Assembly: GCA_012799995.1 (NCBI GenBank)
Contig: JAAZKE010000013.1
Span: forward strand, 1 to 48,835
Length of the DNA: 48,835 bases
From: Chloroflexota bacterium
GTDB taxonomy: Bacteria > Chloroflexota > Anaerolineae > Anaerolineales > Anaerolineaceae
Reading direction: 5' to 3'
The notes beneath the pieces were generated by a model. That model made no database searches. It worked only from the letters and a program-made list of their open reading frames with translations, and was not told where the DNA came from. Each line of letters opens with the position of its first letter. Position 1 is the first letter of the stretch. Both the position numbers and the translations under genes were made by a program. This document shows positions 3,201 to 42,264 of this stretch, in pieces.

Positions 3201-4196
3201 TTCGACGGTGCGACGGAATATGAAATCGAATCCGAACTGGCACGTGCCTGGATGCTTGATCATGCCTGGAAGGAAATCAGCGACCGTTCCTGGGAATGGC
3301 TGCACAGCCTGAAAAATGCTCCGGAAAACATAATTGATGACAACGAAGTCCGTATCATGTACATAGCTCAGTGGCTGGCAGGGAAAGATTACGACTTCTT
3401 CCGCATGACGCATGATGAGTTCTATACAAAACATATCGTGTTTGCAGAATGGCTCAACGAACGCGGCTACGACCAGTCGACTATTATCGACTGGGAAAGT
3501 GTTGCTCCAAACGCGCCGACTGTACTGCCGAAGGATAAGAACGCCTTAGTCGCCTGCCTGCGAATCTGGATTGAAGAACATGGTGAAAAACCGGTAAACA
3601 AACAGGAAATGGACCTACGCGAACAGGCAACGGAAATCAGTCTGCGCACCGGTGATCCGCTACCGATGATTGGCAAGCAATTACTGATGAACGGCAAGTC
3701 CGGTGAACCTTTCGATCAACCTGTGACCGTTGGCGTTATGACAATGCTCAAGCTCCATCACCTTGTGGAAGACAAAGTGCATGCGCGTTCAACTGGCCCA
3801 TACAGCCTCGTGACGCAGCAACCGCTGGGTGGTAAAGCGCAATTCGGTGGCCAGCGCTTCGGTGAAATGGAAGTCTGGGCACTGGAAGCTTATGGCGCTG
3901 CCTACACATTGCAGGAAATGCTTACCGTGAAGTCGGATGACATCCAGGGCCGTGTCAGCACCTACGAAGCGATTGTCAAGGGGAAACCGATTCAGGAACC
4001 CGGTCTGCCCGCTTCCTTCCGCGTGCTGGTGAAAGAGCTCCAGAGTCTCGGATTGGCAGTTGAAGCCTTCCTGGATAATGGTGAAACGATCCGTTTCGGC
4101 AAGGAAGAAGAACGGATGCGTACGCCCAAACTCGAAAGCGGTTTGCTGGAGAGTGGGAAAGAGAAGCCGATCAGTCTCGAAGACCTGATATCGTAA
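258..4196 (+). CDS. rpoB: RNA polymerase beta subunit
   Basis: This is the beta subunit of the core RNA polymerase, 1312 residues, close to the usual bacterial length. The ATG at 258 follows an AGGAGG-type ribosome site. The rifampicin region at about residues 411-440 reads [15 protein letters not shown]...[12 protein letters not shown], with the Asp, His and Ser positions commonly changed in resistant strains all in the sensitive form. The catalytic-core blocks [10 protein letters not shown] and [20 protein letters not shown] are intact. Between FDGA (about residue 985) and the NGKSGEPFD block (about 1144) there are roughly 135 more residues than in E. coli, a charged, Trp-rich lineage insert. 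rpoC, which normally follows, is not in this window; a strong terminator comes directly after the stop. Confidence 0.98.
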
Positions 4197-36528: not shown

Positions 36529-37509
36529 TTATTCACCGATAATTTTTGTAGCTTTATCGAGAATTTCCTGAGGGAATGTGTAACCAATCGCTTTGGCGAA
36601 ATCGAGGTTGACAATTAGATCTGTATCAGTCAGGGATTCAATCGGCATTTCCTCCGGAACAGCTTCGCCCTTTAACACTCTCACTGCCATCTCACCAGTC
36701 TGGCGACCGAGTTTGTAATAGTCGAGGCCAATTGTAGCTAAGCCGCCAGCGCTGATCATTTCTGGTGCGCCACAGATTACCGGGATTTTCTTTTCTTCGG
36801 CAACTTTCGCCAGGTTCGGCATCGCTGAGGCAATAGTGTTGTCAGTTGGCGCATAGAAAGCATCTACTTTACCGGCCATTGAATTGGCAACCTGTTCAAT
36901 ATCGTTCACAGATGTGATCGTTCCGAAGCGGACTTCCCAACCCAGTTCCAGAGCAATCTCTTCTGCCTGTTTGGCTTGCACTTCGGAGTTTACTTCGGAT
37001 GAATTGAAGAGAATTCCGAGCGTTTTCACTTCCGGGAACAGCTCTTTCAGCAAGCCTAACTGCTTGTCTATTGGGCCAGCATCGGTCGTGCCGCTGACAT
37101 TTGTGCCTGGTTTTTCCATAGATTCAGCCAAGCGAGCCATCACGGGATCGGTCACAGCAGTGATCAAAATCGGAATATCGGTTGTGGCAGCAGCGACAGC
37201 CTGAGCAGCCGGAGTTGCGATCGCCAGGATCAAATCCACTTTATCTTTTACAAAGCGCTCACTCATCGTAACCAGGTTAGACTGATCAGCCTGTGCGTTT
37301 TGGTAGTCAATTTTGATGTTTTTCCCATCTTCGTAACCGGCATCTTTGAGCACGTCAACAAACCCGCGATAGGCATCGTCAAGCGACGCATGTTCCACTA
37401 ACTGGAGGACACCAATATTGATTACATCCTCCTGCGCAAAGACAGCCTGAGAAACAAGCAAAACTGATAAGACAACAACGATTACAAGCATTTTAGACAA
37501 ACTTTTCAT
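36529..37509 (-). CDS. ABC transporter substrate-binding protein, TrpX-like family; predicted phenylalanine/aromatic ligand
   Basis: The 326-residue protein has a Sec signal ending AVFAQ and the two-lobed fold of the ABC_sub_bind (TrpX-like) family: INIGVLQLVEHASLDDAYRGF, DYQNAQADQSNL, LILAIATPAAQAV, GILFNSSEVNSEVQ and YAPTDNTIASAMPNL. Members are linked with tryptophan, tyrosine and related uptake. GGAG precedes ATG 37509. The leader upstream has a Phe-rich peptide and an attenuator, which points to phenylalanine as the regulating and probably transported amino acid. No permease or ATPase for it lies in the window. The paralog upstream (37769-38749) is collinear along its whole length. Confidence 0.88.
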   Translation of the reverse strand: MKSLSKMLVIVVVLSVLLVSQAVFAQEDVINIGVLQLVEHASLDDAYRGFVDVLKDAGYEDGKNIKIDYQNAQADQSNLVTMSERFVKDKVDLILAIATPAAQAVAAATTDIPILITAVTDPVMARLAESMEKPGTNVSGTTDAGPIDKQLGLLKELFPEVKTLGILFNSSEVNSEVQAKQAEEIALELGWEVRFGTITSVNDIEQVANSMAGKVDAFYAPTDNTIASAMPNLAKVAEEKKIPVICGAPEMISAGGLATIGLDYYKLGRQTGEMAVRVLKGEAVPEEMPIESLTDTDLIVNLDFAKAIGYTFPQEILDKATKIIGE

Positions 37510-37535: not shown

Positions 37536-37614
37536 AAAAAGACCTCCCGTTTGCAGGAGGTCTTTTACGTTTCGAGATTCTTACAGTAAAAAATCACACT
37601 CCGGCAAACCGAGG
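37536..37614 (-). promoter_or_regulatory. transcription attenuator of the 36529-37509 gene
   Basis: On the minus strand the terminator pairs 37566-37556 (AAAAGACCTCC) with 37547-37537 around an eight-base loop and ends in T. The antiterminator strand lies in codons 18-21 of the leader peptide: CCTC (37614-37611) pairs with GAGG (37546-37543) and GTTTGC (37609-37604) pairs with GCAAAC (37554-37549), taking the terminator loop and 3' arm. Stalling at Phe codons 7-11 would expose this strand and allow read-through; translation to the stop (37596-37594) would cover it. A further GTTTCGA/TCGAAAC helix (37651-37645 with 37577-37571) can enclose the middle. Confidence 0.7.
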
Positions 37615-37665
37615 TGTTTTGCTAAAGAACCCAAAAAAGAAATCGAAACTTTGTAATTTATACAT
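37594..37665 (-). CDS. phenylalanine leader peptide
   Basis: This 23-residue ORF (ATG 37665-37663, TGA 37596-37594) has Phe at positions 7, 9, 10, 11, 13, 14 and 20; positions 7-14 read FDFFFGFF, closely like the PheA and PheST leader peptides of enterobacteria in style. TTC and TTT codons are mixed. The start codon lies six bases after a TGGTAAAAA extended -10 (37680-37672), so it is probably translated without a leader, as at argG. It overlaps the antiterminator strand. It lies in the gap between the two paralogous binding-protein genes and serves the downstream one. Confidence 0.72.
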   Translation of the reverse strand: MYKLQSFDFFFGFFSKTPRFAGV

Positions 37666-37768
37666 AATTTATTTTTACCATAGCTACAAGATTCCGGTGA
37701 ACCTTTTCCAAATTCAGTGACAAGGAATTTTTCACTCTGAATCTATTAGTTAGAATTTGTTATTTCTA

Positions 37769-38749
37769 TCAGTGCTCAATTACCGTTGTTGCACGATCCA
37801 GCAGATCCTGTGGAACCTCATAACCAATCGCTTTGGCGAAATTGAGATTGATCACAATGTCAGCGTCAGTCAATGATTCGATCGGCATACTTGTAGGCTC
37901 AGCTTCACCCTTCAAGATTTTGACCGCCATTTTACCAGTCTGAAAGCCGAGTTTGTAATAGTCAATACCAATGGAGATCAACCCACCTGCTTCCACCATT
38001 CCCGGTTCGCCGCACATGATCGGAATTTTCTTCTCCTCAGCAACTTTTACCAGGTTCGGCATAGCAGAGGCAATGGTGTTATCTGTCGGTGCGTAAATCG
38101 CCTGAACTCTGCCAACCATCGATAGGGCTACCTGTTCAATATCATTCACGCTGGTGATAGTGCCAAAGCGAACACCCCATCCCATAGTTTTGGCAATTTC
38201 TTCAGCCTGTTTCGCCTGAACTTCAGAGTTGACTTCAGACGAATTGTAGATGACGCCTATTGTTTTAATTTCAGGGAACATTTCCTGTAACAACGCCAGT
38301 TGTTTGTCGATCGGACCGGCATCCGTGGTTCCGGTTACGTTCATCCCAGGCTTCTCCATCGAATCAGCCAGTTTAGCAGCCACCGGATCAGTCACGGCAG
38401 TGATCAGAATCGGAATTTTTGTGGTGGCAGCCGCGATTGCCTGTGCTGCCGGCGTGGCGATTGCCAGAATTAAGTCAACGTCGTCTTTGACAAACCGTTC
38501 ACTCATTGTCATCAGATTAGCCTGATCTGCCTGTGCGTTCTGGTAGTCCACTTCAATATTTTTTCCGTCTACATAACCATCTTCTGCGAGAGAATCAATG
38601 AAACCTTGATAGGCTGCGTCCAATGCTGCGTGTTCAACCAGTTGCAAAATGCCAATTTTGATTACTTTGTCTTGGGCAGCAGTTAAACCTGGGGTGATTG
38701 CCATCGCAACGACTATAACCAACAAAAGCATGGAAATCATTTTTTTCAT
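37769..38749 (-). CDS. ABC transporter substrate-binding protein, TrpX-like family (paralog)
   Basis: I place the start at ATG 38749 behind GAGG, giving 326 residues, the same as the next gene downstream; the 35-residue extension upstream is not conserved. A Sec signal ends near LTAAQ. Nearly every motif of the paralog recurs (IKIGILQLVEHAALDAAYQGF, GTTDAGPIDKQLALLQEMFPE, YAPTDNTIASAMPNLVKVAEEKKIP), so the pair is a tandem duplication. Its leader has small hairpins but no Phe peptide or terminator, so the two copies are regulated differently. The ligand is presumably a similar amino acid. Confidence 0.88.
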   Translation of the reverse strand: MKKMISMLLLVIVVAMAITPGLTAAQDKVIKIGILQLVEHAALDAAYQGFIDSLAEDGYVDGKNIEVDYQNAQADQANLMTMSERFVKDDVDLILAIATPAAQAIAAATTKIPILITAVTDPVAAKLADSMEKPGMNVTGTTDAGPIDKQLALLQEMFPEIKTIGVIYNSSEVNSEVQAKQAEEIAKTMGWGVRFGTITSVNDIEQVALSMVGRVQAIYAPTDNTIASAMPNLVKVAEEKKIPIMCGEPGMVEAGGLISIGIDYYKLGFQTGKMAVKILKGEAEPTSMPIESLTDADIVINLNFAKAIGYEVPQDLLDRATTVIEH

Positions 38750-38962: not shown

Positions 38963-39625
38963 TTAAGCAATTGAGCCAAAAAGCCTTGCCAGGTTTTCCA
39001 TTCCTTCACGGTCAGCCAGTGCGATCACTTCGTCATTTTCAAGAAAAACGGTATCACCATGAGGCGGAACTACCTCTCCATTTCGCAGGATGGCAGCGAT
39101 GACACTGGTAAGATTCAGAGTCTTCAATTCTTTACCAATCACGGGCGCTCCAGCCGGGATCACTTCCTTGACCAGCGAAAAATCACCTTTTCCAAGTTTG
39201 AGCAGTACCATCATATGGCCGGTGGAGATTTCTTCTTCGATCATCATTGCGATCAATGTTGCCTGATCAAGCGCGTAATCGACATGGAAGACTTCATTGA
39301 ACATCCAGACATACTTGGAATTGTTCACCCGCGCAATTTTTCTACGGACATCGTAATACTCTCCAGCGATATAGCATAACAGCAGGTTAACCTGATCATC
39401 ATCGCTCATCGCGACCAGCACATCAGCTTCTTTGATGCCAGCGCTTTCCAACACTGCCAAATCCAGCATGTTCCCTTCCACAATTGATTCGGTCTGAATT
39501 TCCTTATGGACAAACTGCAAAACTTCAGGTCTGGATTCGATCAGGGTCACATTATGGTTCTGAACGAGCAGTTTTCGTGCTAATTGAGAGGAGGTTCGAC
39601 CAGCAGATGCAATGATGATATTCAT
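38963..39625 (-). CDS. TrkA/KtrA-like RCK protein (second of pair)
   Basis: The 220-residue protein has an RCK_N Rossmann domain and a C-terminal RCK_C domain (about residues 135-220). The dinucleotide loop reads ASAGRTSSQLA, so two of the usual GxGxxG glycines are missing, although the acidic end of strand 2 (LIESRPE) is kept. GGGAGGAACTC precedes the ATG, which overlaps the stop of the partner gene by four bases. RCK proteins gate K+ uptake systems in response to nucleotides. Here the nearby transporter is a KimA-type importer, not a TrkH/KtrB. Confidence 0.85.
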   Translation of the reverse strand: MNIIIASAGRTSSQLARKLLVQNHNVTLIESRPEVLQFVHKEIQTESIVEGNMLDLAVLESAGIKEADVLVAMSDDDQVNLLLCYIAGEYYDVRRKIARVNNSKYVWMFNEVFHVDYALDQATLIAMMIEEEISTGHMMVLLKLGKGDFSLVKEVIPAGAPVIGKELKTLNLTSVIAAILRNGEVVPPHGDTVFLENDEVIALADREGMENLARLFGSIA

Positions 39626-40284
39626 GAGTTCCTCCCGGCATCTTTGTAAAAAGTTGTCAAGTTTTGCAGTCCCTCGTTGGTGGCACTAATGTGAAGAATA
39701 TCGCCGCCGTAAATCGTCGTCTCATCGGTAAAGTTCACAACCAACCCTTCATGGTTCACTGCAAAGAACAGGCTTTCAGGGATTTGTGCAAGCACGCTGC
39801 CTTGAACCGGCGCAGCATCAACAGGAACCTGATAATTGTAGAACCCGATATTGGTAATTTCTGACGGTTTGTCAACCGCCGCAGTAGATTCTTTCAACCA
39901 CTCTTCAATCCGCAACGCCCCCCAATTGATCAGGGAAATGGTTGGGATATTCATCTGCAAATAGAAAGAGCGATAGGTAGGATCAGTATTTAAAGCGATC
40001 AGTGTCCCAACATGGAATACTTCTTTCAGAATTCTTCCCTGAACGATGTTGTTTACATCATTACGCGAGCTGAGAATAACTGCGGTTACCTCTTCAATTT
40101 TCGCCCGATGCAGGACTTCGCTGGTCATGGCATCGCCGTTGATCCGTTTTCCACGAAACGATTCCGGTAATGACATAAAATTCTGATAATTCTTATCAAT
40201 GATAGTGACATCATAGCCGGACTTATTCAATGCCAGCGCAATGTTTTTTCCAAAACTGCCACATCCAATCACTAAAACAGACAT
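39622..40284 (-). CDS. TrkA/KtrA-like RCK protein (first of pair)
   Basis: This 220-residue RCK protein keeps the canonical loop VIGCGSFGKNIA and an Asp at the end of strand 2 (TIIDKN), as expected for NAD(H) or ATP binding. The C-terminal RCK_C-type domain runs from about residue 140. It lies 21 bases after the KimA-type gene and overlaps its partner, so a hetero-oligomeric ring of one binding and one degenerate subunit is plausible. That is an inference from the operon and the loop sequences. Confidence 0.87.
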   Translation of the reverse strand: MSVLVIGCGSFGKNIALALNKSGYDVTIIDKNYQNFMSLPESFRGKRINGDAMTSEVLHRAKIEEVTAVILSSRNDVNNIVQGRILKEVFHVGTLIALNTDPTYRSFYLQMNIPTISLINWGALRIEEWLKESTAAVDKPSEITNIGFYNYQVPVDAAPVQGSVLAQIPESLFFAVNHEGLVVNFTDETTIYGGDILHISATNEGLQNLTTFYKDAGRNS

Positions 40285-40305
40285 AAGGGGCTCATTTCTC
40301 CACTT

Positions 40306-42264
40306 TTAATTTTCGAGTTCATCCACATCATACGGGACTTCAGTAATTACAACATTCGGGTAAAAAATCAATGCTTTTCGCAGTGTGTTTGCTGCTCTTT
40401 CATGCAGGATCGAAATTGCAGGATCCTTGCTGATAAACTGCGGAACAATAATCGTCAGAGCTTCATTGCTGTTCATTCGTTTCGTGAGCGGGTCAATGTA
40501 ACTGACAAGCGGTGGAATCAGGTTTCGATAGGGCGACTGCAACACCACCAGTCGATAGCCATCTCCCCATTGTTCCCAGGCCTTTTCAATCTTCTCAGCC
40601 TCCTCGGGATCGGTTGCGACATGAACCGCTGTGATGTCGTCAGAAATGGTACGGGCGTAACGGTACCCTTTCATTGTTCCCTGATGAACGCCACTCAATA
40701 GAAGAATTACACGGTTACTGTTGATCTGGAAGTTCCCTTTTTCTCCGTCTTTCAGGGAGAGATGCGAAGCAACTTTTCTATAGTGTCGGTGGATCATAGA
40801 GAACAGCATAACCAACATTGGGGTGAGAATCAAAACAAACCACGCTCCGCTGGTAAATTTTGTTATCCCGAAGATCAACGAAATAATCAGCGTTAAGAAG
40901 GCGCCCAGCCCATTGGTCAACATTTTCGCGAACCAGTGTCGATCATGTTTGAGAACAGAAATATGAGTGTGAATCTGCTCCCCTTCTTTTAACTTTCCGG
41001 ATTTATGCCAGCGTTTCGCCATGCCGAACTGCGATAACGTAAACGACACAAAGACGCCGACTGCATAAAGCGGGATCAAGCGGTTTACGCTTGCCTGAAA
41101 AATAAAAATCAACAGGATCGCCATAGCTGCAAGAAAGACAATACCATTTGAGAAAACCAACCGCGAACCGCGGGCAGAAAACCGGCGTGGCAGAAATCCA
41201 TCTTGAGCCAACAACGCACTTAAGCGCGGGTAATCGGCGAAAGCTGTGTTCGCAGCCATGATCAAAATCACCATTGTTGAAGCCACGGTAACCAAATAGA
41301 TGATGTTTCGTGAGTGGAAAACTGTGCGAGCCACCTGAGAGATATTTGTTTCCAGTTCTGAAGGGATAACGCCCGTTTTATAGGTCAAGAAGGAAACCCC
41401 CAACAACAGCGTCCCCAGGATGAAGGACATGATAATCAGCGTTTGACCGGCATTTTTCGCACGAGGTTCTTTGAACGCCATAATCCCGTTGGAAATCGCT
41501 TCAACGCCTGTCAAAGCGGTTGTACCGCTGGCAAACGCTTTCAAAATCAGGAAAGTAGTAATGGGTGCATACGGTAATTGCGCTTCCAGCTCCGGTGGGT
41601 CAATCACCGTCCCGAGAGTTCCAGTTATGTACTGGAACATTCCATAGACCACCATCAAACCCATCATCACCAGGAAAATATAGGTTGGCACCGCAAAGGT
41701 AATACCGGACTCTTTCACACCCCGCAGATTGATCAACATCACCAATAACACGAATGAGATTGCGAGTATAACCCGATGGGGATACAGTTCCGGGAAAACC
41801 GAGGTAAATTGAGCTACACCGGAAGAGATTGAAACTGCAACTGTCAAAATATAATCAGTCAGCAGCGCTGCTGCAGCAGCCATCGCCGGATACTCACCCA
41901 AATTGTCACGCGAAACAATATACGCGCCGCCACCGGTTGGATAGGCATGAATAGTCTGTTCATAAGAAAGCGTCAGAATGATGAGCAAAATCACAATGCT
42001 GATCGTCAGCGGCATCACATATCTAAATGCAGACGTACCCGCAACTGCCAGGATCAACATCATTTCCTGCGTGCTATATGCCATCGATGACAAAGCATCA
42101 GAGGCAAAAACTGCCAGCCCAATCCCTTTGCCAATGGTCTGATGTGCCATATCCGCTGTTTGAAGTGGTTTCCCAAACAGGATGCTACTGATTGTTCTGC
42201 CCGGTTTGTAATCGGATTTTTTATGAAATACGGTCGTTCTTTCGTTGCCGTCTAAGGATTTCAT
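40306..42264 (-). CDS. KimA-type K+ importer (APC superfamily)
   Basis: The 652-residue protein has twelve membrane helices and a C-terminal cytoplasmic domain from about residue 500. KGIGLAVFASDALSSMAYSTQEM, the YPTGGGAYIVSRDNLG loop and FASGTTALTGVEAISNG match the KUP/KimA group, in which KimA of Bacillus is a high-affinity K+/H+ symporter inhibited by c-di-AMP. Identification as a K+ importer is strengthened by the two RCK genes directly behind it. No long leader for a c-di-AMP riboswitch is present; only 105 bases separate it from the kinase gene, with a TATAAT at 42336-42341 (minus, seen as ATTATA). Confidence 0.82.
   Translation of the reverse strand: MKSLDGNERTTVFHKKSDYKPGRTISSILFGKPLQTADMAHQTIGKGIGLAVFASDALSSMAYSTQEMMLILAVAGTSAFRYVMPLTISIVILLIILTLSYEQTIHAYPTGGGAYIVSRDNLGEYPAMAAAAALLTDYILTVAVSISSGVAQFTSVFPELYPHRVILAISFVLLVMLINLRGVKESGITFAVPTYIFLVMMGLMVVYGMFQYITGTLGTVIDPPELEAQLPYAPITTFLILKAFASGTTALTGVEAISNGIMAFKEPRAKNAGQTLIIMSFILGTLLLGVSFLTYKTGVIPSELETNISQVARTVFHSRNIIYLVTVASTMVILIMAANTAFADYPRLSALLAQDGFLPRRFSARGSRLVFSNGIVFLAAMAILLIFIFQASVNRLIPLYAVGVFVSFTLSQFGMAKRWHKSGKLKEGEQIHTHISVLKHDRHWFAKMLTNGLGAFLTLIISLIFGITKFTSGAWFVLILTPMLVMLFSMIHRHYRKVASHLSLKDGEKGNFQINSNRVILLLSGVHQGTMKGYRYARTISDDITAVHVATDPEEAEKIEKAWEQWGDGYRLVVLQSPYRNLIPPLVSYIDPLTKRMNSNEALTIIVPQFISKDPAISILHERAANTLRKALIFYPNVVITEVPYDVDELEN

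Follow-up and report, generated by a model that had tools for sequence, protein, structure and literature searches.

A predicted phenylalanine leader-peptide attenuator before an orphan TrpX-type binding protein in the Anaerolineaceae

We propose that a solute-binding protein gene of a Chloroflexota bacterium is controlled by a ribosome-dependent transcription attenuator that senses charged tRNA-Phe and acts on an orphan Phe-binding subunit, a reading to which we give a probability of about 0.8. The window, the whole stretch of 48,835 nucleotides analysed here, is an entire contig of a 2.3 Mb draft genome (G000, 98.8% complete) from a genus of the Anaerolineaceae, Chloroflexota, whose other members are labelled Leptolinea sp. 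or Anaerolineaceae. The initial annotation of the locus had already described a phenylalanine leader-peptide attenuator before a solute-binding protein, and this description is now supported by 14 aromatic leaders with terminators.

Results

The features of the locus, all on the minus strand, are as follows.

37769 to 38749, minus strand: upstream tandem paralogue, PF04392, predicted Tyr type (Glu and Tyr), no leader found
37677 to 37682, minus strand: candidate -10 element TATGGT, 11 nt before the leader ATG, proposed from its sequence and its conserved position in relatives
37594 to 37665, minus strand: leader peptide ORF of 23 codons, MYKLQSFDFFFGFFSKTPRFAGV and stop codon, from the ORF read and 13 homologous leaders in the genus
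37624 to 37647, minus strand: Phe control codons, six Phe in codons 7-14, from the ORF translation
37604 to 37614, minus strand: antiterminator strand B, CCUCGGUUUGC (CCUC-G-GUUUGC), codons 18-21 of the leader ORF
37536 to 37566, minus strand: intrinsic terminator with a 13-pair stem, CAAA loop and U-run, conserved with compensatory changes
37543 to 37554, minus strand: strand C, GCAAACGGGAGG (GCAAAC-GG-GAGG), terminator loop and 3' arm, the partner of B
36529 to 37509, minus strand: PF04392 (TrpX-type) binding protein placed under the attenuator, predicted Phe type (Ala-248/Tyr-264) from profile and homologue comparison

The ORF of 23 residues first described at this locus, with Phe at six of positions 7-14, was recovered at its coordinates (37665 to 37594), the Phe codons being numbers 7, 9, 10, 11, 13 and 14. 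Among the 818 short ORFs of the window (12-45 amino acids), this is the one that reaches six Phe in eight residues; the next best has four. The candidate -10 element would leave a very short 5' UTR. Across the genus, the leader ATGs have promoter-like -10 elements 6-12 nt to their 5' side, and the leader may therefore be translated from an mRNA that is almost leaderless. No Shine-Dalgarno sequence is evident 5' of the leader ATG, which counts against the attenuator reading.

The terminator stem spans 37566 to 37537 and its U-run reaches 37536. A terminator does lie before the binding-protein start, as first annotated, but at a spacing of 26 nt rather than 27, counted from its end to the ATG at 37509. 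The strand overlapping the ORF that had been suggested to pair with the terminator loop and 3' arm was also found: it is strand B, whose pairing with C is equalled by just 3% of shuffles, and folding of the 191-nt leader region is better than in 200 of 200 shuffles (z -2.65). Rfam gave no match in the window, the phenylalanine leader and T-box families at gathering score included.

The same element is present in 9 of the 14 genus genomes, in 14 copies (the window's and 13 others), each combining a short ORF that carries an aromatic run, a B-type strand in the 3' part of that ORF and a terminator a short way upstream of the gene. In all leaders strand B falls within ORF nucleotides 39-73, either past the aromatic run or overlapping its end, and the B:C pairing energy lies between -10 and -22 kcal/mol. 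This pairing beats shuffled controls in most leaders (the weakest is G037, with 9% of shuffles as good), and cognate partners pair better than swapped ones, with 101 of 20,000 permutations as good. Covariance analysis of the leader in relatives, which the initial annotation had proposed as a check, gave a divided answer. Compensatory changes are present in the terminator stem of the leader alignment, but column-by-column covariation of B and C in the MAFFT alignment of the leaders was not significant, and we count this against the proposal.

The switch was modeled by folding with the ribosome placed either on the aromatic run or at the stop codon, before the terminator 3' arm is made. In each of the 12 distinct leaders, C pairs upstream with a probability of 0.75-1.0 when the ribosome is stalled, against 0-0.17 when it stands at the stop codon. 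For the window's leader the values are 0.83 and 0.00, and 0 of 100 codon shuffles equal this; if the footprint is set to 8 nt rather than 12 or 16, 0.53 remains at the stop codon. Three other leaders are matched by 11 to 27 of 100 codon shuffles. In the folding, then, a stalled ribosome leaves strand B accessible and one at the stop codon masks it. Equilibrium folding counts against the proposal, as the terminator nearly always wins once its 3' arm exists; the switch would therefore have to be kinetic. A protector stem around B was considered as a general feature and rejected, being present in some leaders, with ribosome-free pairing of C spanning 0.05-1.0.

The initial annotation had named relatives that keep the terminator and lose the Phe codons as a finding that would refute it, and the comparison within the genus did not refute it. 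All 14 leaders keep aromatic runs of Phe or Tyr: MQNIHSFFFFFFFATPHKVVQREFFA and MKQLTCSFFFFSFFMRQLRVQR are examples of Phe leaders and MQKTPFTNAYGYYYYRGPRKIVQRVVFA and MKKIICVNSYYYYSTNAPGAE of Tyr leaders, while two single-copy genomes have mixed leaders (e.g., MKNYNSFFFFGYYFYHTNTPGAE). The existence of Tyr leaders indicates that selection acts on the identity of the amino acid and not on a U-rich tract. This bears on a simpler explanation, in which the hairpin is merely the terminator of the upstream paralogue and the Phe-rich ORF a by-product of a U-rich stretch. The paralogue's stop codon is indeed about 200 nt upstream and the terminator is strong. Against this, the leader in relatives stands before whichever copy is first, behind unrelated genes; Tyr leaders are runs of UAU and UAC rather than U tracts; and the short ORF is conserved together with strands B and C. 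We regard this explanation as largely refuted and as highly improbable.

A pattern scan of the genus for similar terminators led back mostly to the loci already described, with a single additional site close to the arg locus. An Arg-rich leader, MNQEQIHHSIRRRIRIQNHPRS, with the same terminator type lies 5' of an argG-like gene (L163 1921-2049, which is G038:C1:2560920-2561048), and attenuation by leader peptides may thus extend to other amino acids in the genus. In a class-wide search only distant homologues were found, with no aromatic leaders in the stretches examined. Elsewhere, streptococcal genomes have a conserved aromatic leader peptide whose last residues are YFSFFR or FYFSYFR, 270-520 nt 5' of a PF04392 gene whose pocket is mostly Ser/Tyr (upstream regions of L180, L183, L184, L186-L188, L201-L204 and L206-L208). 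In a Halanaerobiales MAG (L038, about 3720-3950), a Glu-type PF04392 gene is preceded by a possible TTG-start leader with five consecutive Tyr and by a terminator.

Short aromatic peptides can act as nascent-chain arrest sensors in other systems, and the leader could in principle be a TnaC-like arrest peptide that senses a free aromatic metabolite instead of counting Phe-tRNA. The conserved aromatic ending of the separate streptococcal leaders speaks for such a mechanism. In the genus, on the other hand, leaders differ freely in length and in sequence beyond the aromatic run, and their C-terminal residues are those dictated by the RNA pairing (GUGCAG) and not by a fixed peptide motif; we consider arrest very unlikely here.

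The window's binding protein scores 304.7 bits against the PF04392 profile (curated cut-off 25.9). With the NCBIfam TrpX equivalog, which denotes tryptophan, it reaches 372.1 bits, under the 390-bit threshold. Its full-length solved homologues are 6hni, 3lft and 3lkv, reported with Tyr, Trp and Phe bound, respectively, in PMC6816091. The initial annotation had called the ligands of this transporter family poorly defined, a view that these solved complexes overturn. The same paper names two selecting residues (CD0873 numbering): Glu-263 for Tyr or Ala for Phe and Trp, and Tyr-279 for Tyr and Phe or Gln for Trp (PMC6816091). The window's protein has Ala (Ala-248) at the first position and, at the second, Tyr-264 where the Trp binder has Gln, which is the Phe-type combination. 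Its pocket is thus predicted to point to Phe independently of the leader, as in VC_1101, whose structure holds Phe. For the upstream paralogue, the internal ATG at 38749 is the likely start. A leader was sought in the upstream region of this second paralogue (37769-38749) and not found, so only the Phe copy is leadered in the window's genome; the Glu copy lacks a leader here and in G038. Counterparts of the Tyr-type paralogue in G039, G040, G048 and G049 do carry an attenuator.

Across the genus, leader type and pocket residue agree: Phe leaders occur with Ala in 7/7 cases, Tyr leaders with Glu in all four that are readable and mixed leaders with Glu in 2/2. The fifth Tyr leader (G043b) was left out, its protein being truncated before the specificity position. 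Both leader types stand side by side in three genomes (G039, G040 and G048) and in a fourth, G049. The Ala proteins do not form one clade (p 0.013), so the match of leader and pocket has either originated repeatedly or persisted through gene conversion. Glu is the residue in nearly every close homologue from Clostridia and Treponema; among close relatives, then, Ala appears with the Phe leader. Counting against the match, no more than 2 to 4 of the contrasts behind it are independent. We rejected a universal residue code, since Glu/Tyr pockets occur in one gene with a Trp T-box and in another with a Phe T-box; the counter-cases are the T-box Trp protein of the window's genome and, from the Peptococcaceae, a protein that follows a UUC T-box.

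A further possibility is that the attenuator senses Phe while the protein handles several aromatic amino acids, the leader reporting the limiting member and not a specific ligand. It would fit the single-copy genes that combine a mixed Phe/Tyr leader with a Glu pocket, a Glu-pocket relative (L046) whose T-box reads UUC (Phe) and the Glu/Tyr pocket of the Trp T-box gene in the window's genome. The leadered duplicates of the genus, in contrast, split strictly into Phe/Ala and Tyr/Glu, and CD0873 was specific for Tyr according to PMC6816091. We therefore judge mixed service unlikely. That tandem copies in this lineage have repeatedly split into Phe and Tyr versions, with leader codons and one pocket residue changing together so that the leader reads out the ligand, is a proposal we hold with even confidence and doubt.

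In G000 (98.8% complete), neither chorismate synthase nor dehydroquinate synthase was found. Its single EPSP-synthase-domain match is of the weaker kind, which in other genomes accompanies a stronger match, and is probably MurA. G039, G043 and G049 share this pattern of missing aromatic-pathway genes. Import of all three aromatic amino acids is probable in these organisms. A prephenate dehydratase domain is kept in G000 despite the missing chorismate synthase (G000:C76:19321-19860, outside the window), and this is counted against. Leaders are also present in the prototroph-like relatives G038, G040 and G048, which makes auxotrophy a context rather than a condition for the element.

A third binding protein of the genome, on contig C18, lies behind a T-box with the specifier UGG (Trp) and comes with a permease and an ATPase of its own. 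Contig C43 carries a second permease/ATPase pair, which has no adjacent binding protein and is conserved in relatives. As G037 and G044 each have one binding protein and one permease, the C43 pair is the likely partner of the attenuated binding protein. Attenuation of a binding subunit alone had initially been remarked on as unusual; a separate permease/ATPase locus would explain it. Within the window, two TrkA-domain genes adjoin an amino acid permease gene (PF13520) at 38963-42264, and genes with starts like this group flank binding proteins in G039 and G037.

Discussion

In the attenuation mechanism that we favor, RNA polymerase would initiate just upstream of the leader and a ribosome would translate the 23-residue peptide. 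With ample Phe-tRNA, the ribosome would reach the stop codon and cover B, allowing the terminator to form and stopping transcription before the gene. With scarce Phe-tRNA it would stall in codons 7-14 and leave B free to pair with the terminator loop (C) as soon as this emerges, while the 3' arm is still to be transcribed, giving read-through into the binding-protein gene. The product would be a Phe-binding subunit working with a permease and ATPase encoded elsewhere, probably on contig C43, in an organism that, lacking chorismate synthesis, would scavenge aromatic amino acids. In the genus, most tandem copies would be tuned to one amino acid in both leader and pocket.

The enterobacterial pheA and pheST leaders consist of a short Phe-rich ORF, a terminator and an overlapping antiterminator strand. 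The element described here has the same parts and is predicted to be derepressed likewise on Phe-tRNA shortage. It differs in controlling one transporter subunit, not biosynthesis or a tRNA synthetase; in an antiterminator that pairs with the terminator loop and 3' arm; in having no Rfam match; and in its phylum, Chloroflexota. The T-box that controls trpX in Streptococcus suis (PMC9382623) serves the same binding-protein family and also reads charged-tRNA status via termination, but a T-box binds tRNA directly, without a leader peptide. CD0873, VC_1101 and SP1069 (PDB 6hni, 3lkv and 3lft) are full-length homologues with the same two specificity positions; unlike here, their specificity is not linked to leader peptide content in the text available on them.

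Among the open-access papers searched, none joins Chloroflexi, leader peptides and transcription attenuation. The attenuation mechanism is already known; its place is new, and leader and pocket show an unusual joint change from one tandem copy to another. The element extends leader-peptide attenuation to Chloroflexota and to a lone transporter subunit, in an organism seemingly unable to make aromatic amino acids. Genomes in which leader and pocket are both switched between copies of the same fold offer natural paired tests, and the leader gives an annotation-independent readout of the ligand for a family that automatic tools would put near tryptophan.
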